Below are positions 15,109 through 27,780 of a stretch of 36,903 nt of DNA, in pieces. The first letter of the stretch is position 1. Every line of letters begins with the position of its first letter. The notes under the pieces are model-generated. The model searched no databases and had not been told where the DNA came from. It saw only the letters and a list, made by a program, of their open reading frames with translations. Source of the stretch: Candidatus Thiodiazotropha sp. (ex Ustalcina ferruginea) (lineage in GTDB: Bacteria > Pseudomonadota > Gammaproteobacteria > Chromatiales > Chromatiaceae); the NCBI GenBank assembly GCA_025656375.1, contig JAHXHU010000131.1, positions 1 through 36,903 on the forward strand, written 5' to 3'. Both the position numbers and the translations under genes were made by a program.

Positions 15109-15813
15109 ATGGACCTATCCCTAGGACGCTTGTCAGGTTTCAGTAATAACGCTTCTGCTTCAGGCGGTATCCAGCGTGGGTTGGAATCATCCCGAGCTGA
15201 TCAGATCACTGCGGGCAGTTCAGCCGAGGATTCTGCAGCTACCCCCGCCACCCGGGAAAGCGCAACTCAGCGTCCCGTCATGGAAACCGGACAAGCTAAC
15301 CCGTTGACGCCGGAGGAGCAGGCACAGGTCAGGGAGCTACAAAAGGTAGACCGGGAGGTCAGAGCCCACGAGGCTGCCCACAGAGCGGCGGCAGGTGGTC
15401 TGGCATCGGGTGGCAGCTACACGTATCAGACAGGACCGGATGGAAGAAACTATGCGGTTGGTGGTGAAGTCTCCATTAGTGCTTCTTCGTCCGGGACACC
15501 TCGTGAGAAACTTCAGCAGGCCGAGACCATCCGCAGGGCTGCTCTGGCCCCGGCGGATCCATCATCCCAGGACCGCCAAGTCGCTGCACAGGCGGCTGCA
15601 ACGGCCGCGCAAGCTCGCAGTGAAATCAGCGCTGCAAAGCACCAGGAACAGACAAAACAGGGGGAGGAGCCGGTAGGCCAGGATACCCGGCATCAAACTC
15701 AGCAAGTCAGCAACCTCTCTACACTTGGACGTCGAGCCATTGCCTCATTTGAAGGGGTAGCTGGCATTAATGCTTTGCATAGCAACTCAACTCCCATTGA
15801 CGAAATCATTTAA
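15109..15813 (+). CDS. SprA-related putative metalloprotease (CJM1_0395 family)
   Basis: A 234-residue protein. Residues 1-60 are low-complexity (Ser, Ala, Thr, Gln). The conserved core begins near residue 64 with LTPEEQAQVRELQKVDREV, then the HEAAH zinc-binding motif near residue 85, followed by GGSYTYQTGPDGRNYAVGGEV and a helical PADPSSQDRQVAAQAAATAAQARSEI segment. This is the layout of the SprA-related (PF12118) family, called putative metalloproteases because of the HExxH-like motif. Here it reads HEAAH, which meets HExxH. Protease activity has not been shown for the family as far as I know. GGAGATGGC precedes the ATG. It is divergent from prfC, and repeat copy B begins directly at its stop codon. 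Confidence 0.82.
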   Translation: MDLSLGRLSGFSNNASASGGIQRGLESSRADQITAGSSAEDSAATPATRESATQRPVMETGQANPLTPEEQAQVRELQKVDREVRAHEAAHRAAAGGLASGGSYTYQTGPDGRNYAVGGEVSISASSSGTPREKLQQAETIRRAALAPADPSSQDRQVAAQAAATAAQARSEISAAKHQEQTKQGEEPVGQDTRHQTQQVSNLSTLGRRAIASFEGVAGINALHSNSTPIDEII

Positions 15814-15960
15814 AAACAAAACCTGATTACCCACCACACTCATCAATTGCATCAGTGTTGAAAGGTAATTAACTTAAGATGCTCTGAAACGTTATTACGT
15901 GAATTTGTGTTGACTTCCAGCGCGTTATGGCGGGGCAGGACCCAACCAATCACGGCTAAA
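15814..15960 (+). repeat. ~150 bp dispersed noncoding repeat, copy B
   Basis: Second copy of the element at 13045-13195, in the same orientation, about 75-80% identical by eye. The GGGGCAG hairpin arm is kept but its partner arm is missing (GGGGCAGGACCC instead of GGGGCAGGGCTCTGCCCC), so copy B has lost the strong stem. Its right end overlaps the last codons of the minus-strand 480-residue gene. Confidence 0.8.
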
Positions 15961-17398
15961 ACCCACCTCCGGTTCTAAATCCTCCACCTCCACCTCTACC
16001 ACCTCTGCCATCTGGAAACCCGCTCCGTCCCAGATCACCGAGAATATCCCCGATGCCACCGTTCCAGACGGTCCCACGGCCGAAGCCACCAGATCCAAAA
16101 TTCGGATTGGAGCGCCTTGGTCGATAACGTTGCTGTTGCTGTAAAACCTTCCATAACACACCCCGGTCCAGCATACCGGCAAAGAACTGAGCGAGTACTG
16201 TGCCAATGACATTGTCATCTCTGAAGGTGGAGCCCATTCGATCATAACGATTGCGTTTGAATTCCATGCGCAATGCCTCAAGTTCACTGAGGCGCTGTTG
16301 GTGTTGCCCGATCGTCTCTTTGAAACCGTCAATCGCCGACTCCAGATCAAGGTATTGGTTCTCCCTATCCAGCATCCGACTAATGATCAGATCGTCATCC
16401 GGAAACGGCGTATTCAAGGCATCATTACGCAGAGCCATCAAATCGTCTCGTTTGAACTCCGCGGCAAGGAATGTCACCGCTTTTTGTGTGAATTCATCAT
16501 CGCCGGTAGCAAATTCAGCCTTTTGGCTTAGAAATCTCTGGTAGTTGGCTTCATGCCGCCCAATATCGGAATCGACCTCATCCAACCGGGTCTGGGACTC
16601 CTCCAGGGCCTTCTCCAGCGAATGAATGCCATCAGCCTCCCGTGCAGCCTTGTCCAGTACCTTCAAGGTGGCAATCGCTTCGTCAGCAAGCCTGCTGATA
16701 GTGGTGGCGTGCTCGCGCAGGCGGTCGGGGATCTCTTTCAGACGAGTGAAGTTAGCACGGGCATCGGCAAAACCGATCAAATGCGCCACTCTGCCATCAA
16801 GCCAACGTACCAATCCGCTGGCTTTGTAGGCAGGCAATCCATAGTTGCGTTGCCAGAGGTACATAAATAAGGGGTCGCTGCGGTAAGCGTCCCCTTTCTG
16901 TTCACGTTCGGCCTCACTGCGAGATGCCTTTTCACCCGCATGCATGGCCTTGCGTTCAGCCGCCACTGCTTTCTCTCGCTGATGGCGGTAATCGGGGTCC
17001 CGATCAAGCCTAGCCTGAGTCTCAGCCTCAGCATCATCGACTACCTTGGCGGCATGATCCACCTGCTCGGCCTGCGCAGTTCGTTTAGCGGCTAACAATT
17101 CAAATGCGTCTTCAGCACTACGGATCTCTCTCTGCAAAGCGGAAAGGGCCTCATGCCGTTGTGCAAACAGGGCCTTGACCTGGTGTTCAGTCTGATCCAG
17201 TTGCCGCTCCATCTCTCCATCGATCAACCAATCCAGGTGGGTTCTTGCCAATTCCCGATAATCCTGAGTCATAGACTGCTGCTGATCGGCGAGCTGGCCG
17301 GAGATCGCTTCGATCTGCTCCTCTAGCCCGTCGATCTTGCTATGTGGCTTGTTAACTGACTGGTCGATGGAAGCCAGCACCTGTCGTCCTGGGATCAT
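15956..17398 (-). CDS. Coiled-coil protein with glycine-rich tail (third gene of unknown operon)
   Basis: A 480-residue protein, function unknown. Residues about 15-190 are long charged helices, likely coiled coil (for example LARTHLDWLIDGEMERQLDQ, later EKAVAAERKAMHAGEKA). A compact middle part contains YLWQRNYGLPAYKASGLVRWLDGRVA near residues 178-205. A second coiled-coil part spans 220-380. The C-terminus has IGTVLAQFFAGMLDRGVLW, then an Arg/Gly/Asn-rich tail ending in GGGGGFRTGGGF. No signal peptide or clear membrane helix is present. Such Gly-rich ends are common on membrane-associated or assembly proteins. It starts 10 bases after the DUF6384-like gene, so it is the last gene of a three-gene operon. 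The final codons overlap repeat copy B, so the tail sequence may have been altered by the repeat. Confidence 0.75.
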   Translation of the reverse strand: MIPGRQVLASIDQSVNKPHSKIDGLEEQIEAISGQLADQQQSMTQDYRELARTHLDWLIDGEMERQLDQTEHQVKALFAQRHEALSALQREIRSAEDAFELLAAKRTAQAEQVDHAAKVVDDAEAETQARLDRDPDYRHQREKAVAAERKAMHAGEKASRSEAEREQKGDAYRSDPLFMYLWQRNYGLPAYKASGLVRWLDGRVAHLIGFADARANFTRLKEIPDRLREHATTISRLADEAIATLKVLDKAAREADGIHSLEKALEESQTRLDEVDSDIGRHEANYQRFLSQKAEFATGDDEFTQKAVTFLAAEFKRDDLMALRNDALNTPFPDDDLIISRMLDRENQYLDLESAIDGFKETIGQHQQRLSELEALRMEFKRNRYDRMGSTFRDDNVIGTVLAQFFAGMLDRGVLWKVLQQQQRYRPRRSNPNFGSGGFGRGTVWNGGIGDILGDLGRSGFPDGRGGRGGGGGFRTGGGF

Positions 17399-17408
17399 TC
17401 AGCTCTCC

Positions 17409-18347
17409 TCACCATCGGGTTATCGCACCACCCGTGGTGGGCATTTCGTAATTGGGCACAAGGTAACCCTGGTCTTTATATCCAAACCGGTCCTTCTCGA
17501 TGATGCCGTCATCCTGTTTGTCGTTAGCGACTGATTGGAACACCGTTTTGTCCACCCGCAGACCCCACACTTTTACCCAGCCGGTTTTACCGCTCTCTTC
17601 GCTCTCGATGGGTACACTCAGCACCTTTCCTGTCGGATCTACAGCCTCAACAATAAGATAGTAGTTGCGAGCATCAGTATTCACATCAGGAATTCGCCAT
17701 ACGCCGGATCGCTGCTCCTGACGGTTAATGATCTGGATGGTGTATTCCTGTTCCAGCTGGGTCTGAAGTTGCTCCAGTTGTTCAATGGCCTCTTTTGCCT
17801 TCTCACTGTTCTCATCATTCAATGCTACCTTGCCTGCATTGAAAATCCGCATCGCTGTTGTGCGGGCATTGTCCGTCTTGGCCAGTGCTACCACAGCCCC
17901 ATGGGTTGCATGCAATTCCTCAGGCAAAGCTGCGTTTGGCACCACGAATGCGAAGTAATTGGCAGCCAGTGCCACCACACCGGCAAGCAAACCACCACCG
18001 ATCCATTTCCCCCACCTTCCGCGTTTGATGTAGATGTGCGCCAGTCGAGTTGTAAGGCCCCGCTTCGGAGGTTTATAGGTAAAACGGTCTTCCTTGAGTG
18101 CGGCAACCCCCTGTTCAAGGATATGATCCGGCACCTCAATCCCCTGCTGGGCATAGATCTTTCGCAAGCGCTGTTTAAGCTCCTCCTCACGGCCCACCTC
18201 ATCCAGTTCAAGGTTGACCAGGCGTTCCCGGCGGCGCAGTGTATCGACCACGTCCATCGCAAGCATGACCTCGTCCAGAGGTGGGGACTCATGGGTGTTA
18301 CTAAGCTGCGTTGTAGATTCCGCAGGCGTTGTCATCTTATCGCTCAC
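17409..18347 (-). CDS. DUF6384-like single-pass membrane protein
   Basis: A 312-residue protein. The N-terminal cytosolic part (residues about 20-100) is helical and contains LDEVMLAMDVVDTLRRRE, LKQRLRKIYAQQGIEVPDHIL and a KEDRF motif, which I associate with DUF6384; this assignment is from memory and moderate. One transmembrane helix follows a basic stretch (GGGLLAGVVALAANYFAFVV, residues about 118-137). The C-terminal part has a helical region, then a beta-rich domain with VDPTGKVLSVPIESEESGK and a tail ending in GGAITRW, probably outside the membrane. The start is GTG at 18347, overlapping the stop of the gene before it (GTGA), so translation is coupled. An ATG four codons later is an alternative. 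It is the likely membrane anchor of the three-gene set. Confidence 0.72.
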   Translation of the reverse strand: MSDKMTTPAESTTQLSNTHESPPLDEVMLAMDVVDTLRRRERLVNLELDEVGREEELKQRLRKIYAQQGIEVPDHILEQGVAALKEDRFTYKPPKRGLTTRLAHIYIKRGRWGKWIGGGLLAGVVALAANYFAFVVPNAALPEELHATHGAVVALAKTDNARTTAMRIFNAGKVALNDENSEKAKEAIEQLEQLQTQLEQEYTIQIINRQEQRSGVWRIPDVNTDARNYYLIVEAVDPTGKVLSVPIESEESGKTGWVKVWGLRVDKTVFQSVANDKQDDGIIEKDRFGYKDQGYLVPNYEMPTTGGAITRW

Positions 18348-19528
18348 GCATCCAGCTCGACATCAAGCCCTTTTCCCTCCTCTGCCAGTCGTGCCAGTTG
18401 ACGTTTGCCTTCTTCAACCGCTTCACGAATTTCGTCGGCATTCTGGGTGCTCAGTCTACGCATCTCAGCGATAATTTCGTGTGAACGAGTCTGCCAGTTG
18501 ACGACGGAGTCCACCAACTTTTTTACCGACTCTGCTCGGATCGTAGGACCGTAACCGGCCTTGACCGCTGCTTCCTGGACCTTGCCACCAATCTCCGCCA
18601 GATCCTCCAACGACTTGCTGACACCCTCTTTCATCGCCTCGATGGTTTGAGTGCCCTCATGCAACCCGAACATGCCAGTAAAAGAGGCAGTCAGGGCGGT
18701 CAATACGACTTCGTTGGTAGAGAAGAAACTGACTGCCTGAGCATAGACCCGCTCCTTTGCGGTTGTGGTCTGAAGCAGACGTGCCATGACCACCTCCGAG
18801 GTGTTATAACTGACTGTAAGGTTGTCAGAGAGATCCTTGCTGATCTGGTAGCGTTTATCCTCTTTCTGTAATGCACGAACCTTCTCGTCACGGGTCATCT
18901 CCAGTTTTGCCCGCTCAGCGGCATCTTCACTGGCATAGGCCTCCACACCCTTCATCGCTTCGGCAACACTGGCCTTGGCTTCATCAACTTTACCTTCAGC
19001 CGTTTTCAATACTTCCAGGGCCAACACTTCCGACTGCTTCAATGCACCGCGAAAATCCTGATAGGCCTCAAGTATGGTGTGCTCTCTCTGAATCTGGTCG
19101 TTGCTCGATGAAGTCACATCGAGGTAGGTCTCCTTGATCTCATCGAACCGACTCGCAATGTCACCACGGGTGACTTTCATCCAGACATTACTGATCCGCT
19201 CAAAACTGTCCACTTTGCCATCATCAATCTGTTCCACCATTCTTTTGGCATCGTCGCGGATACTGTTGAAAGCATTGGTGATCTTTTCGTAGCGTTCACC
19301 GATTTCCATTGCCTTGACCTGCTCACGCACCACATCATTGAACATCGATGCCTTACCCAAGGTCCTGGCAATGGCCGTCACACGTCCCTCGTCCAGATCT
19401 GATATTTGGTTAAGCAGTGCGATAATCGGCTGCTCCTGGGTATCCTCATCGGTTGGAAGTAATCCTAAGTCATGCAGACGATTCATGGCCTTGTCGAGGT
19501 ACTTCATCGGTGTGGATGGGGTATTCAT
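18344..19528 (-). CDS. Helical protein of unknown function, first gene of three-gene operon
   Basis: A 394-residue, almost entirely helical, acidic protein with no signal peptide. Visible landmarks are MNRLHDLGLLPTDE at the start, a conserved-looking block MFNDVVREQVKAMEIGERYEKI near residues 62-82, and LTVSYNTSEVVMARLLQTTTAKERVYAQAVSFF near 230-262. Then comes LTASFTGMFGLHEGTQTIEAMK near 272-293 and a closing VEEGKRQLARLAEEGK. The overall look resembles the long-helix TelA (tellurite/toxic-anion resistance) proteins, but I do not see a match that I would call. Relatives are sometimes labelled 'cell surface protein', though nothing here indicates export. It overlaps the next gene by four bases. 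The ~110 bases before it hold the probable operon promoter. Confidence 0.72.
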   Translation of the reverse strand: MNTPSTPMKYLDKAMNRLHDLGLLPTDEDTQEQPIIALLNQISDLDEGRVTAIARTLGKASMFNDVVREQVKAMEIGERYEKITNAFNSIRDDAKRMVEQIDDGKVDSFERISNVWMKVTRGDIASRFDEIKETYLDVTSSSNDQIQREHTILEAYQDFRGALKQSEVLALEVLKTAEGKVDEAKASVAEAMKGVEAYASEDAAERAKLEMTRDEKVRALQKEDKRYQISKDLSDNLTVSYNTSEVVMARLLQTTTAKERVYAQAVSFFSTNEVVLTALTASFTGMFGLHEGTQTIEAMKEGVSKSLEDLAEIGGKVQEAAVKAGYGPTIRAESVKKLVDSVVNWQTRSHEIIAEMRRLSTQNADEIREAVEEGKRQLARLAEEGKGLDVELDA

Positions 19529-19639
19529 GGTTTCTCCGTTGACGTTGGATCGTCAGTTAGTATTAATGGGTGGCCCCAGGGCAATCTGTACTTATTACAC
19601 CGATTGGTCAGATTTAAAACCTGAACCCACGGATTCAGG

Positions 19640-20107
19640 CTAAAACTCCAGCGCCATGACCAAGGCATCTTCCCGTTTCCTATCAGCAGCCGGATAGTAA
19701 TTCCTGCGCTGACCAATCTTCACAAAACCTATTTTTTCGTAGAGTTTGAAGGCAATTTGATTACTTGCCCTAACTTCCAGAAACACCGTCTCAGCACCAT
19801 GCTGTCGAGCTATTTTCAGTAACCGTTGACTCAGTTTATAACCCAATCCCTGCCCCTGCCACTTGGGATGAATACAGATATTGAGGATATGTGACTCATC
19901 GATCACCACTGACATCACGCCATAGCCGATGACTTGCTGATCCAGCGTCACCACCCAGCAACAATAACCAACACGTAAACAGTCCTGAAAGATGTCCAGT
20001 GTCCAGGGAAAGGGGTAAACTCTCTCTTCCATGGCCATCACATGAGATAGATCCTCATTTAGCATGGGACGTATACCCAGCAGGGGATCAAGCAGTTGTG
20101 CGCTCAT
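19640..20107 (-). CDS. rimI: Ribosomal protein S18 alanine N-acetyltransferase
   Basis: A 155-residue GNAT-fold acetyltransferase. RimI acetylates the N-terminal alanine of ribosomal protein S18. The acetyl-CoA loop is visible as HPKWQGQGLGYKL near residues 82-94, preceded by SHILNICI and followed by EVRASNQIAFKLYEKIGF, which is the typical RimI ending with RRNYYP and DALVMAL. The length matches the family (about 150). Its start overlaps the stop of the uracil-DNA glycosylase gene (ATGA), so the two are co-translated. This pairing is common in gammaproteobacteria. Confidence 0.92.
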   Translation of the reverse strand: MSAQLLDPLLGIRPMLNEDLSHVMAMEERVYPFPWTLDIFQDCLRVGYCCWVVTLDQQVIGYGVMSVVIDESHILNICIHPKWQGQGLGYKLSQRLLKIARQHGAETVFLEVRASNQIAFKLYEKIGFVKIGQRRNYYPAADRKREDALVMALEF

Positions 20108-21039: not shown

Positions 21040-22568
21040 CTAAACGTCTCCAGTTTGCGGATGGGCTTTTGAAGCAGACTCCAGAATCTTATTGACTGCA
21101 CTGATGTAGGCCTTTGCCGAGGCAATGACGATATCGGTGTCAGCTCCCTGTCCATTCGCAATCCGCCCTCCCTTCTCCAGCCGCACTGTCACCTCACCTT
21201 GGGCATCGGTCCCACTGGTAATATTATTGACGGAATAGAGTTGCAGCTCCGCGCCACTGTTGACAATACTTTCAATCGCCTTGAAAGCAGCATCCACCGG
21301 GCCTCCACCTGATGCAGCCCCTGGCTCCTCCTCACTATCAACACTGAGTGTAACCTCTGCATGGGGTGTTTCACCGGTCTCGGAGCAGACCTTCAAAGCG
21401 ATCAACTTGACTCGTTCGTTGAATGACTCTGTCTTGGTATCGGTTACCAGCGCCTGTAGATCTTCATCAAAAATTTCATGCTTCTTATCGGCCAGATCCT
21501 TGAACCGGGAGAAGGCGGCATTCAACTCTTCCTCTGACTCAAAGCTGATCCAATCTGGTGCGAAAGGCATTTCGGCCGGAGTGTTTGCCCAAAACCATAC
21601 GATTTTGACTCCATCCCACATCCTCGGCACGCATGATTTCGTAGGTCTCTCTCGATTTAAGTACACCGTCCTGGTGAATGCCTGATTCATGGGCAAAGGC
21701 ATTTGGACCGACGATGGCCTTGTTGGGTTGCACTGGAAATCCGGTAATGTTGGATACCAATTTGGAGCAGGCGACGATCTGTGTGGTGTCTAACCTTGTC
21801 TGGCAGGAGAAGAGTTCGTACCGCCATCACAATCTCTTCTAATGAAGCATTGCCCGCCCTCTCACCGAGGCCGTTGATGGTGCATTCCACTTGCCGTGCC
21901 CCATTGCTTACAGCAGACAGGGAGTTAGCAACCTCCAAACCCAGATCATTGTGACAATGGACAGAAAAGATGGCCTTGTCAGCATTGGGAACCCGCTCGC
22001 GCATCCGATGAATCAGGTCACCGAACTGGTGCGGCATAGCATAGCCCACCGTATCGGGAACATTCAGGGTCGTTGCACCGGCGTTGATCACCGCTTCAAA
22101 GATACGACACAGAAAGTCGATTTCTGAGCGCCCGGCATCCTCTGCGGAAAACTCTACATTATCGGTATAGTTTCTTGCCCGCTTAACGGCATGCACGGCT
22201 TGTTCGACCACCTGATCCGGATTCATCCGCAACTTGTGCTGCATGTGAATGGGGGAAGTGGCGATAAACGTGTGAATCCTTCCCGAAGTGGCCTCCTTCA
22301 GCGCTTCGCCTGCCCGATCGATATCCTTGTCAAGTGCACGGGCCAGACCACAGACAGTTGAATCCTTCACCGCCTTTGCCACAGCTGAAACTGCTTCAAA
22401 ATCACCATGACTGGCAATTGGAAAGCCTGCTTCAATGACATCCACTTGCAGCTTCTCCAAGGCCTTGCCAATACGGACCTTCTCATCCTTGGTCATGGAA
22501 GCACCGGGGCTTTGCTCACCATCACGCAATGTGGTGTCGAATATGATCAATTGATCAGGTTGGCTCAT
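21040..22568 (-). pseudogene. leuA: 2-isopropylmalate synthase, broken by two frameshifts
   Basis: Three ORFs in three frames make up one LeuA. The N-terminal piece (from 22568) has the [16 protein letters not shown] active site, EAGFPIAS, the metal-binding [13 protein letters not shown] and [16 protein letters not shown]. Then the frame changes near 21810-21820. The middle piece has [31 protein letters not shown] and [13 protein letters not shown]. It runs to a stop near 21540, where the frame changes again. The last piece has SEEELNAAF, DLADKKHEIFDEDL and the regulatory domain to 21040. Both shifts go the same way, and compared with the family each looks like a loss of about 11 bases. LeuA makes 2-isopropylmalate, the first step of leucine synthesis. 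If real, this copy is dead. Either another synthase exists, leucine is imported, or the sequence has errors. Confidence 0.85.
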
Positions 22569-24326: not shown

Positions 24327-25631
24327 TCAGAGCTTGCCGGAGGCCTTCACATCCAGATAGGCATTCACCAGATTAACAGGGAGCTGCTGGGGCCTGCTGT
24401 CAATAATCAAGGCTCCCCGATGGGTGAATCGCTCATGGGCCTGTTTGCGCTGACCAAGGTATCCCAATACCGCCTGGAAGCGTAGTGCCCCCTGCAAATC
24501 GACGACCGGGTGTTCTATCACTGCATCCAGGGAGGCTTCGTGGAGATCTGCAATCACCACCAGATGCCGTCTTACCAGCAGCGAGATTGCCTTTAACAGA
24601 TCATCACGTTCCTCGTTACGGCTGTTGGTCAAAATGATGATTAATGCCCTGCGTTGTTGCAACAGTATCAACTTGTGTGCAGCGGCAAGGTAGTCAGCCG
24701 CATGCAGGGTTGAGTCGAGATCATAGGTGCGATCCAGCAATCGACGCACCACGTCCCCCCCCTTCATCGGTGGTTGCCAGCGCTCTTCGCCAGCAAAGCT
24801 TAAAAAACCAACCGCATCGCCCTGTCGGTCTGCGACATAACTCAGCAGTAACATTGCATTCAGGGCATGATCTAGATGGGCACCGTCACCATCCTCATGG
24901 CGCATGTGCCTGCCACAGTCAAGCATGAAAACGATCTGCTGATCACGTTCATCCTGGTACTCCTTGGATATCAGCCGACGATAACGCGAACTGGCCTTCC
25001 AATCGATCTGGCGCATGGCATCACCGGTACGGTATTCACGAAGCTGATGGAAATCACTACCTTCACCACGGCGCTGGCGGCGACGAACCCCCATCTGACT
25101 GAGATGGTTGTCTGTTGCCAACAAGGCATAGCGGGCAATCTCGCGAAAGTTTGGAAACACCCGAACTTGAGTAATATGATCAATGAAATACTTCTGTCGC
25201 CATAGACCCAGCGGGGAATGAACGAGTAGATCAACGCCATCGAATTGCCTCTCTCCACGCCGGTTGGGCAACACACGATAGTGCAAGTTCGTCTGACGTT
25301 GTGGCGGTATAGCGATCGATTGAAGCTGATCCTGTACGCTGAAATCACTTGGATGGTGATCGTGGACCGCTAAATTGAGTACATATTCCGATCTGTTACG
25401 CAGCCGTAACTCCACATCTGTCCAGACGCCTACAGGTATACTTGTGCGGATATGCCGTACCAATTCAGGTATTGGCAGCTGCCGTAACCGCCACAGATCC
25501 AACAGCGCAAATACCAATAAAAGGGCGCAGAGTAATTTCCAGGGCATCGCCCAAGCCGGATACCAGATCGCTAACAGTGCCGGCGTACAGAGTAGAAACA
25601 GGGCCGTTATCAGTCGGGATGAGGGAATCAC
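24327..25631 (-). CDS. DUF58 domain protein (MoxR partner)
   Basis: A 434-residue membrane-anchored protein. Two hydrophobic helices at residues about 8-48 are followed by a beta-rich domain, then the DUF58 signature YRTGDAMRQIDWKASSR near residue 215 and a von Willebrand A-like strand VFMLDCGRHM near 245. The usual metal-site motif DxSxS of true VWA domains is not kept (DCGRH), which is common for DUF58. DUF58 proteins are nearly always paired with MoxR ATPases and are thought to be their substrates or adaptors in membrane or cell-envelope complexes. The start is a GTG whose sequence overlaps the MoxR stop (GTGA), so the two are translationally coupled. It is the last gene of the operon that begins at 32452. 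Confidence 0.9.
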   Translation of the reverse strand: MIPSSRLITALFLLCTPALLAIWYPAWAMPWKLLCALLLVFALLDLWRLRQLPIPELVRHIRTSIPVGVWTDVELRLRNRSEYVLNLAVHDHHPSDFSVQDQLQSIAIPPQRQTNLHYRVLPNRRGERQFDGVDLLVHSPLGLWRQKYFIDHITQVRVFPNFREIARYALLATDNHLSQMGVRRRQRRGEGSDFHQLREYRTGDAMRQIDWKASSRYRRLISKEYQDERDQQIVFMLDCGRHMRHEDGDGAHLDHALNAMLLLSYVADRQGDAVGFLSFAGEERWQPPMKGGDVVRRLLDRTYDLDSTLHAADYLAAAHKLILLQQRRALIIILTNSRNEERDDLLKAISLLVRRHLVVIADLHEASLDAVIEHPVVDLQGALRFQAVLGYLGQRKQAHERFTHRGALIIDSRPQQLPVNLVNAYLDVKASGKL

Positions 25632-26602
25632 TGGCGTGGTGCAGGGATGTTATCCAACAGATCGTTCAACACATCGTCCGGCTGGTAACCTTCGATCTCC
25701 AGATCGGTGGCGAGTCGTATCCGGTGTCGCAACACGGGCAGTGCTGCAACTTTGATATCATCAGGTGTGACGAAGTCACGCTGTTGCAAAAAGGCTTCAA
25801 CCCTGGCCGCCCGTAGTAGAGATATGGTGCCGCGGGGTCCCGGACCCGCCTCAATGCCATTCCAATCCCTTGCCGAACGTATCAGACGTACTGCGTAGTT
25901 GATAATCTGCTCATCCATCTGCAGTTTTGCTACATGGGCTTGAAGCTGCGGGATCTCATCAGCCTTCAGCTGAGGACGAATAGCGGAAGTATCGAGCTGA
26001 TCACCCACAGCGCCCAGTGTCACTTGCTTCACCATCGCCTGCTCTTCGCTCTCAACAGGATAGTCGATAAACACCTTTAGCAAAAACCGGTCAAGCTGGG
26101 CCTGAGGCAACGGATAGGTACCCTCCTGTTCAATCGGGTTCTGCGTCGCCAACACCAGAAAGGGGGGAGTAAGGGGAAAGGTACGACCCTCGATAGTCAC
26201 CTGCTGTTCTTGCATCGCCTCAAGCAGGGCTGACTGGGTTTTGGCAGGCGAGCGGTTTATCTCATCAGCCAAGAGCAGGTTGCAGAATACCGGCCCCTTT
26301 CGCACCCTGAAATTCTCGCTTTTCATATCAAACATGATATGGCCTGATATATCACTCGGCATCAGATCCGGGGTGAACTGGATACGGCTGAATGCGCCCT
26401 GAACTGCAGCTGCCAGACTACGTACCAGCAGTGTTTTACCTAGACCAGGTACCCCTTCCACCAGAACATGCCCCCCTGAAAAGAGTGCCAGCATGACCTC
26501 ATGGATAACCTGCGGCTGACCAATAACCACCCTTGCAATCTCGGCTTCCAGGCCTATGGCCCGTTGTAAAACGTCCTCATTCAACGCTGCTTGACCTACC
26601 AT
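25628..26602 (-). CDS. MoxR-family AAA+ ATPase
   Basis: A 324-residue AAA+ ATPase of the MoxR group, chaperone-like ATPases that help assemble or activate protein complexes. Walker A is GVPGLGKTLLVRSLA near residue 43, Walker B LLLADEINRSPAKTQSALLEAM near 105, sensor-type ATQNPIEQEGTYPLPQAQLDRF near 150, and the lid domain has the family's GPGPRGTISLLRAARV near 255. The ORF track starts 52 codons earlier, inside the DUF4350 gene. I choose the ATG at 26602, two bases past the DUF4350 stop, because that gives the normal family length and N-terminus. It is coupled on both sides to operon partners. Confidence 0.94.
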   Translation of the reverse strand: MVGQAALNEDVLQRAIGLEAEIARVVIGQPQVIHEVMLALFSGGHVLVEGVPGLGKTLLVRSLAAAVQGAFSRIQFTPDLMPSDISGHIMFDMKSENFRVRKGPVFCNLLLADEINRSPAKTQSALLEAMQEQQVTIEGRTFPLTPPFLVLATQNPIEQEGTYPLPQAQLDRFLLKVFIDYPVESEEQAMVKQVTLGAVGDQLDTSAIRPQLKADEIPQLQAHVAKLQMDEQIINYAVRLIRSARDWNGIEAGPGPRGTISLLRAARVEAFLQQRDFVTPDDIKVAALPVLRHRIRLATDLEIEGYQPDDVLNDLLDNIPAPRQ

Positions 26603-26604
26603 AG

Positions 26605-27780
26605 TTAATGCTCTCTCTTTTCCGGGTGTAACGCCGACAACAGGCGCTGCAGGTTTGTCATGGTTTTTATCAGATGACCGGTATCGCCCTGATGGGGATA
26701 GAGGGCTTGGTGTATTGAATGGGCAGTCATCCCCGTCTTTTCCGCTAACCATTGGCATCGGGCCTCTTCATCCAAGTGATGTAACAGAGGATGGCTAGCC
26801 AACCAACGTTTTTCCACTACACGTCTACCCCCCTCAAACAATCTCGCTGAGGGGTCATGTCGCCAGGCAAACTCCGCTGCCGCCTGTAAGTGTTCGAGTA
26901 GATCCCGTCGTTGTCTGCTTGTTGGTAAAATCAACGGTCCGCTACGTTGACTCAGACGCCAGATCATCAACAGAACCAATAACGCCAGCGTTATCAGAAG
27001 ATAAGGTGCATGTCGCCACAGCAGGCTAAGCAGCGATGGCATCTGGGAACTATAGAGGAGCCATACCGAGTTATTGTCTCCAACCAGGCGGGCCAACAGC
27101 AGGGCATGATCATGCTCCCCAATTCGATCATTACTGAAAAAGTCGTTATCACTGAGAAAGGTAACCCTTCCCTCGCCCCAGGGAAAGATCAACAGCTGCG
27201 GGTAATCCTCATCAGGAGCCGCCCAGTGTGCCTGCTCGCTCTCCACATCGAACCATTTGTTGTTATCGAACTTGATCTGCATCGAGGCCGACTCATCCGG
27301 CAGGAAGAGTGTGCTTATCTCTTCATCTTCATCTTCATCTTCATCTTCATCTTCATCTTCGGTCGACTCACTGCTCACAATAGCAACACTAAACTGTTCC
27401 AGTAAGGGGTGTACAGGCCCATCCTCCAACACTGTTCCCGGTGTGACCAGTAAATGCCCACCGCTTTCTACCCATGCAAGCAATGAAGCAACACGCGCCT
27501 GTGGAAGCGGCGGCCCCAGATCCCTGACAAGTAACAAGCCTGGCCGTTGTGGTGGTTCAGCCAGGAAATGACGACCAGAGTGACTGGTTACATCTATCTC
27601 CAGACGTGACAGATAATACTCAGCCGCCAATAATGGATTGCGCCTGGGTTCTGTTGCCATGCCGCTGCGTATCTGCTTTGAGTGATGCTCAAAATTTTCT
27701 ACAAACCAAAGTGTAAAGTAACCACAGAGCAGGATCAGCAGGGTCAGTCCGACAGCAATACCCAGACGATTATCCCGCAC
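26605..27780 (-). CDS. DUF4350 domain membrane protein with an Asp-Glu repeat tract
   Basis: A 391-residue protein with a transmembrane helix at residues about 8-26 and a second near 250-270 (HAPYLLITLALLVLLMIW). Between them is the DUF4350 domain, including NPLLAAEYYLSRL, LLVRDLGPP and LLAWVESGGHLLVTPG. This looks like a GATase-type fold in the periplasm. The C-terminal cytosolic part is helical (LLEHLQAAAEFAWRHD). After residue 138 the protein carries an uninterrupted run of alternating Glu and Asp coded by a six-base DNA repeat. DUF4350 genes occur regularly between DUF4129 and MoxR genes. Its start overlaps the DUF4129 stop by 11 bases. Function unknown, probably part of the same membrane complex as MoxR and DUF58. 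Confidence 0.85.
   Translation of the reverse strand: MRDNRLGIAVGLTLLILLCGYFTLWFVENFEHHSKQIRSGMATEPRRNPLLAAEYYLSRLEIDVTSHSGRHFLAEPPQRPGLLLVRDLGPPLPQARVASLLAWVESGGHLLVTPGTVLEDGPVHPLLEQFSVAIVSSESTEDEDEDEDEDEDEEISTLFLPDESASMQIKFDNNKWFDVESEQAHWAAPDEDYPQLLIFPWGEGRVTFLSDNDFFSNDRIGEHDHALLLARLVGDNNSVWLLYSSQMPSLLSLLWRHAPYLLITLALLVLLMIWRLSQRSGPLILPTSRQRRDLLEHLQAAAEFAWRHDPSARLFEGGRRVVEKRWLASHPLLHHLDEEARCQWLAEKTGMTAHSIHQALYPHQGDTGHLIKTMTNLQRLLSALHPEKREH
27321..27360 (+). repeat. Hexanucleotide tandem repeat (CTTCAT)n within DUF4350 gene
   Basis: Six full CTTCAT units plus CTTC. On the coding (minus) strand it encodes alternating Asp and Glu. Because the unit is six bases, changes in copy number keep the reading frame and would only alter the length of the acidic tract. 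Confidence 0.95.

Follow-up and report, generated by a model that had tools for sequence, protein, structure and literature searches.

The question raised by this locus is what three tightly coupled genes do together, and at which place in the cell. They lie on contig JAHXHU010000131.1 of Candidatus Thiodiazotropha sp. (ex Ustalcina ferruginea) (assembly GCA_025656375.1), which was analysed as a stretch of 36,903 nucleotides (the window), and are designated A, B and C in reading order. What the data support best is joint action of A, B and C at the inner membrane. An initial annotation, made from the letters of the window, had placed three open reading frames (ORFs) here, with a GTGA overlap between the first two and a gap of 10 bases before the third, and all of these are present in the sequence:

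18344..19528, minus strand: gene A, ORF of 394 amino acids with ATG start; all-helical model, no signal peptide or transmembrane segment seen
17409..18347, minus strand: gene B, ORF of 312 amino acids with GTG start; DUF6384, one transmembrane segment
15956..17398, minus strand: gene C, ORF of 480 amino acids with ATG start; coiled coil and Gly-rich C-terminal tail
18344..18347, minus strand: GTGA overlap of 4 bases, comprising the stop codon of A and the start codon of B as read on the coding strand
17399..17408, minus strand: gap of 10 bases between B and C, read from the sequence

A search with B over 84,980 species genomes resulted in 141 relatives, and the loci of 80 were retained. A and B are adjacent in all 80 loci, and C follows in the same order and on the same strand in 78; the two loci lacking C (L086 and L116) are cut off by a contig edge a short way beyond B. 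All 67 loci in which the three genes are fully called have them on one strand in a fixed order; the median spacing is 24 bases from A to B and 7 bases from B to C, and the arrangement is far beyond chance. The trio is also intact in 13 further genomes of a class sample and in two sister species. Its carriers belong to the Gammaproteobacteria, Hyphomicrobiales, Desulfobulbaceae/Desulfocapsaceae, Thermodesulfovibrionia and Trueperaceae and represent four phyla. In 399 sampled genomes of the phylum, A and B are jointly present in 2 and jointly absent in 397. Hence the genes are not found apart in most genomes, and the earlier view that tight coupling implies joint action is strongly supported by synteny in every bacterial locus examined, by correlated divergence and by gain or loss of the block within the genus.

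The ratio of non-synonymous to synonymous substitution rates (dN/dS) was determined against two sister genomes and is about 0.04 for A, 0.17-0.19 for B and 0.13-0.16 for C; purifying selection is clear and strongest in A. Because of these values (0.04-0.19) and the conservation of all three across phyla, A, B and C are considered real genes. With 62-82% identity across phyla, A can be regarded as unusually conserved and slow-evolving, and B evolves about twice and C about three times as fast. The conserved stretches of A include RGD[IV]..RF and SFFSTNE. Its structure model is all helical, as had been proposed for the 394-residue protein, and forms a long hairpin with a confident core at about residues 140-260, the rest being poor (mean predicted local distance difference test, pLDDT, of 69). 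In plasmid records A is named 'cell surface protein' or 'merozoite surface protein 3b'. For A and C no curated family was found in Pfam, NCBIfam, PADLOC and PHROGs, where all matches are weak and most of them reflect coiled coils. A sequence and profile search for solved relatives of A, B and C yielded none, the matches of C being generic coiled coils. The comparison with profile hidden Markov models that had been recommended was productive for B, which matches PF19911, and gave no curated family for A and C.

B had been described as a single-pass membrane protein with DUF6384-like features, and the data go beyond this description. It is a near full-length member of PF19911 (414.6 bits, E 3e-124; curated cut-off 25 bits), with residues 19-312 aligned to profile positions 3-308 of 308. 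The closest named records (L038, L042) are 89-95% identical to B. The structure model (mean pLDDT 82) consists of an N-terminal helical domain, a transmembrane segment, a helical bundle and a beta domain. One hydrophobic stretch (residues 118-136) was detected in B and none above the threshold in A and C; likewise, 67 of 74 B orthologues have exactly one segment of the transmembrane type, starting nearly always at residues 99-124. Basic residues N-terminal of this segment point to a topology with the N-terminus inside and the C-terminus outside. The terminus [VIL]TxW is found in nearly all B proteins, and the beta domain is the part best kept in the plasmid and phage forms according to the alignment. 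The elements of B are located as follows:

17940..17996, minus strand: transmembrane segment, residues 118-136, hydropathy 1.94, N-terminal side basic
17412..17744, minus strand: C-terminal beta domain, residues 202-312, pLDDT about 90 or higher, backed by the alignment; probably periplasmic
17412..17423, minus strand: C-terminal motif ITRW ([VIL]TxW in orthologues), from the sequence and orthologue comparison

In three loci of one gammaproteobacterial family (L033-L035; G163, G273, G009), DUF6384 appears as two overlapping profile pieces in a frame of 424-464 amino acids, which suggests an inserted or duplicated helical segment.

C, announced as a 480-residue coiled-coil protein with a Gly-rich end, is present as such. 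Two coiled-coil regions surround a conserved block and are followed by the tail, and its family matches in Pfam, NCBIfam, PADLOC and the profiles of solved structures are of coiled-coil grade only.

15959..16111, minus strand: Gly-rich tail of C, with the terminal FRTGGGF at 15959-15979

The last residues of C are GGGGGFRTGGGF. The terminus F[KR]TGGGF occurs in 74 of 90 complete orthologues and close variants in nearly all others, and even in the C proteins of phages and plasmids a Ser/Thr-rich terminus is retained, e.g., FSTSDSF. We infer that the fixed C-termini of B and C may serve docking.

To describe the mobility of the trio, its insertion site was compared with relatives. The genes are flanked by rimI (19640-20107) and by a gene on the strand opposite to the trio (15109-15813), whose product we take to be metalloprotease/SprA-like.

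15814..19639, no strand assigned: interval holding the cassette, from rimI to the metalloprotease-like gene, defined by comparison with relatives without the trio

In three relatives without the trio (G277, G283, G275), rimI and the metalloprotease-like gene are spaced by about 50-60 bases, compared with 3.8 kb here, and from this empty site it follows that the trio was gained or lost as a whole block. In a further genome (G278), 1.15 kb of other sequence lies between the two genes. The Thiodiazotropha trio fits precisely into this site, and its distribution is patchy: A was found in 3 of 19 genomes of the genus, and the trio in 14 of 274 genomes of the class sample. In a tree of A, Nitrospirota are interleaved with two gammaproteobacterial sequences and Desulfobulbia stand beside a Methyloprofundus sequence. 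These placements suggest transfer of the trio between phyla, with the caveat that the tree positions the long branches of plasmids and phages poorly and that bins from metagenomes may be misleading.

The trio also occurs in MEGAPLASMIDS and phage settings. A is encoded by 11 plasmid records, with megaplasmids of Pseudomonas and Rhizobiales, and 8 of the 11 were covered by a check of the trio: in six annotated plasmids A is followed by a 'DUF6384 family protein' and then by a C-like protein, and the ORFs of two unannotated plasmids show the same A-B-C arrangement. On two Pseudomonas megaplasmids (L128, L132), StiP and a peptidyl-tRNA hydrolase-like gene lie upstream of the trio and a dCTP deaminase lies downstream of it. 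A type I-F CRISPR set was found near the trio on megaplasmid pMPPla107; there and on a P. alcaligenes plasmid, Cas genes lie some kilobases from the trio, possibly by chance. In the jumbo phage phiR1-37, A corresponds to g190 (42% identical) and B to g191 (DUF6384, E 5e-26). C was assigned to g192 from its position, its helical nature and a Gly/Ser tail ending in FGGGGGFSSSDSF; blastp from C does not reach g192. This Yersinia phage is lytic, and g190-g192 (L124:9977-13808) are labelled only as hypothetical or coding sequence, not as structural. The sole significant viral match of B by structure is the 440-residue entry G4KKD0 (E 2.4e-15), for which the tool gave no name and which, because of its length, is likely g191 of phiR1-37. 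Homologues of B and C, with no detectable A, were found in Dolichospermum phage Dfl-JY45 (L130:5990-8721), where the C terminus FGGGGRVTGGGF resembles the bacterial forms. In Pseudomonas plasmids and phages B is longer (about 440-490 amino acids), with extra helical sequence between the transmembrane segment and the beta domain. A viral scan with a narrow alignment of A gave no match. Four IMG/VR contigs labelled 'viral' (L164-L167) carry A, three of them with B and C, and L166 ends too early; they were rejected as phage trios and read as prophage edges with host flank because a tyrosine-recombinase-like gene is followed by ordinary bacterial-type genes around the trio.

A loose likeness to PspA or TelA systems had been proposed for the trio, of which the kinship did not hold. 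For TelA, suspected from the helical C-terminus of A, no match of A or C to the profile PF05816 was found in Pfam, nor any in the whole of genome G000, and hhalign gave probabilities of 0.1% (A) and 2.9% (C) with a TelA profile of three sequences. For PspA there was no match of A or C to PF04012 in Pfam, and in the hhalign comparison with a single PspA sequence the probability was 0.1% for A and 0.3% for C. Within the limits of these small comparison sets, TelA and PspA can be regarded as excluded as detectable relatives. Since the tests of kinship were negative, only the functional analogy remains. As in TelA/XpaC (XpaC-TelA-SPFH operons), a helical soluble protein stands beside a small helical membrane protein with proposed submembrane action, and three-gene operons were also observed for TelA in this analysis; XpaC-like proteins have several hydrophobic stretches at the start, whereas B has one transmembrane segment and a periplasmic beta domain as predicted. 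The long helices linked to the inner membrane recall, by analogy, PspA/IM30, a family that forms helical polymers remodelling membranes. PspA itself is also present in 9 of 16 trio genomes, and because both coexist a replacement of PspA by the trio is not supported. The trio shares its occurrence on plasmids and in jumbo phages with the Ter module (TerB, TerD, StiP, TelA, TerF); according to a published survey, TelA builds structures beneath the membrane, and TelA/Ter modules include components whose submembrane structures prevent the entry of phages or xenobiotics (PMC7824862). StiP lies near two megaplasmid trios and a DUF533/TerB-like gene near those of Desulfobulbaceae, but A, B and C are not Ter components by Pfam and the association is occasional. 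B belongs to DUF6384, a family itself without a function, and its constant partners A and C are outside any curated family. As a known anti-phage defence system the trio was rejected, PADLOC-DB 2.0 giving matches of coiled-coil grade only (best E 0.002).

Our preferred reading, put forward tentatively, is that A-B-C is a self-contained, horizontally transferable cassette for one inner-membrane-anchored assembly that protects the envelope under stress. B would cross the inner membrane once, with its helical N-terminal domain, containing the conserved block MLAMDVVDTLR, in the cytoplasm, and with the helical bundle and the beta domain ending in TxW in the periplasm. A, as a long helical hairpin, and C, as a coiled coil with a Gly-rich and aromatic-ended tail, would be cytoplasmic and recruited to the N-terminal domain of B, where they could assemble into a sheet or lattice beneath the membrane. 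This assembly might strengthen or seal the envelope under stress, working like TelA-type submembrane proteins without relation to them. The linkage of the genes, their joint inheritance, the single hydrophobic anchor, the conserved termini and the gain or loss as one unit are established and speak for this reading. We infer topology, complex formation and submembrane location, and envelope protection under stress is a guess; the earlier idea of a scaffold or envelope-stress complex fits the anatomy of the trio and is the best guess. The proposed function, be it envelope protection or the exclusion of incoming elements, was judged from topology, mobility, gene company and the analogy with TelA/Ter.

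As to gene company, no neighbour is broadly shared among the loci inspected. Recurrent within lineages are DUF533 (TerB-like), LemA and a BON-LysM protein in Desulfobulbaceae and Thiocystis, DUF2382 in Bradyrhizobium and StiP on the two Pseudomonas megaplasmids, which are possibly related to each other; these neighbours are of the stress type and, in their lineages, agree with the preferred reading. Several points weigh against the envelope-protecting assembly. Such neighbours are confined to particular lineages and do not extend to the loci in general, and upstream of A neither enriched sigma-54, sigma-32, RpoE or EcfG motifs nor a shared regulatory motif was found. The correlation of the pairwise distances of A, B and C over 64 loci (r 0.81-0.92), in itself in favour of joint action, is uncorrected for shared ancestry. 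The structure model of A is only moderately confident, and the fold search of B against the PDB gave helical-hairpin coincidences only and no match for the beta domain.

In mobile elements and hosts alike, the main task of the same membrane-anchored assembly could be to keep out superinfecting phages or incoming plasmids and not to cope with abiotic stress, which we regard as unlikely. The accessory, patchy occurrence, the precise insertion after rimI and the presence on megaplasmids and in phiR1-37 would agree with such exclusion, and Ter modules are said to have such a role (PMC7824862). Most defence genes are unlike the very slow-evolving A, however, and neither a PADLOC match nor, in most chromosomal loci, a recurrent defence neighbourhood near the trio was found. 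Still less probable is an envelope-spanning device for transport or positioning, e.g., of a polymer or protein, in which the tail of C would act as a flexible arm and B would make the outer contact through its periplasmic domain. The single transmembrane segment, the periplasmic beta domain, the conserved docking-like C-terminal motifs and the variable insert in the periplasmic part of plasmid and phage B would suit it, but the neighbourhoods inspected show no gene for an ATPase, a channel or a substrate in linkage with the trio. That the genes are mere neighbours kept together by block transfer, without a shared complex, is improbable: the apparent horizontal mobility of the cassette would alone favour clustering, whereas fixed order, tight spacing and correlated rates extend over several phyla and over chromosomal, plasmid and phage settings, and A never occurs without B in the 399 sampled genomes.

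The fold search of A against the PDB placed many ClyA-type pore proteins among the top 50 matches, amid many long helical bundles (probability up to 0.99, template-modelling score up to 0.51), to which little weight was given because all E are above 0.02 and the model (pLDDT 69) is weak. A pore-forming system, with A as a distant ClyA-type alpha-helical pore protein and B and C as partners, would be in line with these matches (best score about 0.5) but is hardly credible, as chemoreceptors and other generic helical bundles reach equal scores, the region of the model that matters is weak, and A has neither a strongly hydrophobic segment (maximum hydropathy 1.18) nor a sequence match to solved pore proteins.

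The trio as a set appears to be undescribed so far, in agreement with the earlier statement that no function was known for it: a literature search for 'DUF6384' found no paper naming the family, with most papers behind a subscription, the one on the phiR1-37 genome among them, outside its reach. Sets of three genes that stay together so strictly and have no known function are promising sources of new biology, and this one stands out by its slow-evolving central protein A and its occurrence in four phyla, on megaplasmids and in phiR1-37. It gives a common frame to three uninformatively annotated families, A as 'cell surface protein', B as DUF6384 and C without a name. In a wider and rather doubtful interpretation, it would be an undescribed, horizontally mobile envelope machine of three components, with no sequence relation to characterised systems. 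Bacteria, megaplasmids and a minimum of one jumbo phage would use it to control crossing of the inner membrane, for stress sealing or competitor exclusion. Culturable Devosia, Thiocapsa and Methylorubrum extorquens AM1, as well as phiR1-37, carry the trio and offer a tractable test bed.

In the surroundings of the trio, a sigma-70 scan near A gave nothing above chance. Directly after rimI an inverted repeat was read from the sequence:

19620..19639, minus strand: inverted repeat, CCTGAATCCGTGGGTTCAGG then TTTTAAAT; possible terminator

It may separate rimI from the trio as a terminator; a terminator scan did not flag it. Farther along the window, leuA (2-isopropylmalate synthase, 21043-22568) is spread over three frames with about two frameshifts relative to the intact 516-amino-acid gene of a sister species, and is either a pseudogene or misassembled in what is a fragmented genome. 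On the minus strand, the ORFs at 25628-26758 and 26605-27780 (25628-27780 in total) overlap by about 150 bases, which may be due to a miscalled start or another frameshift.

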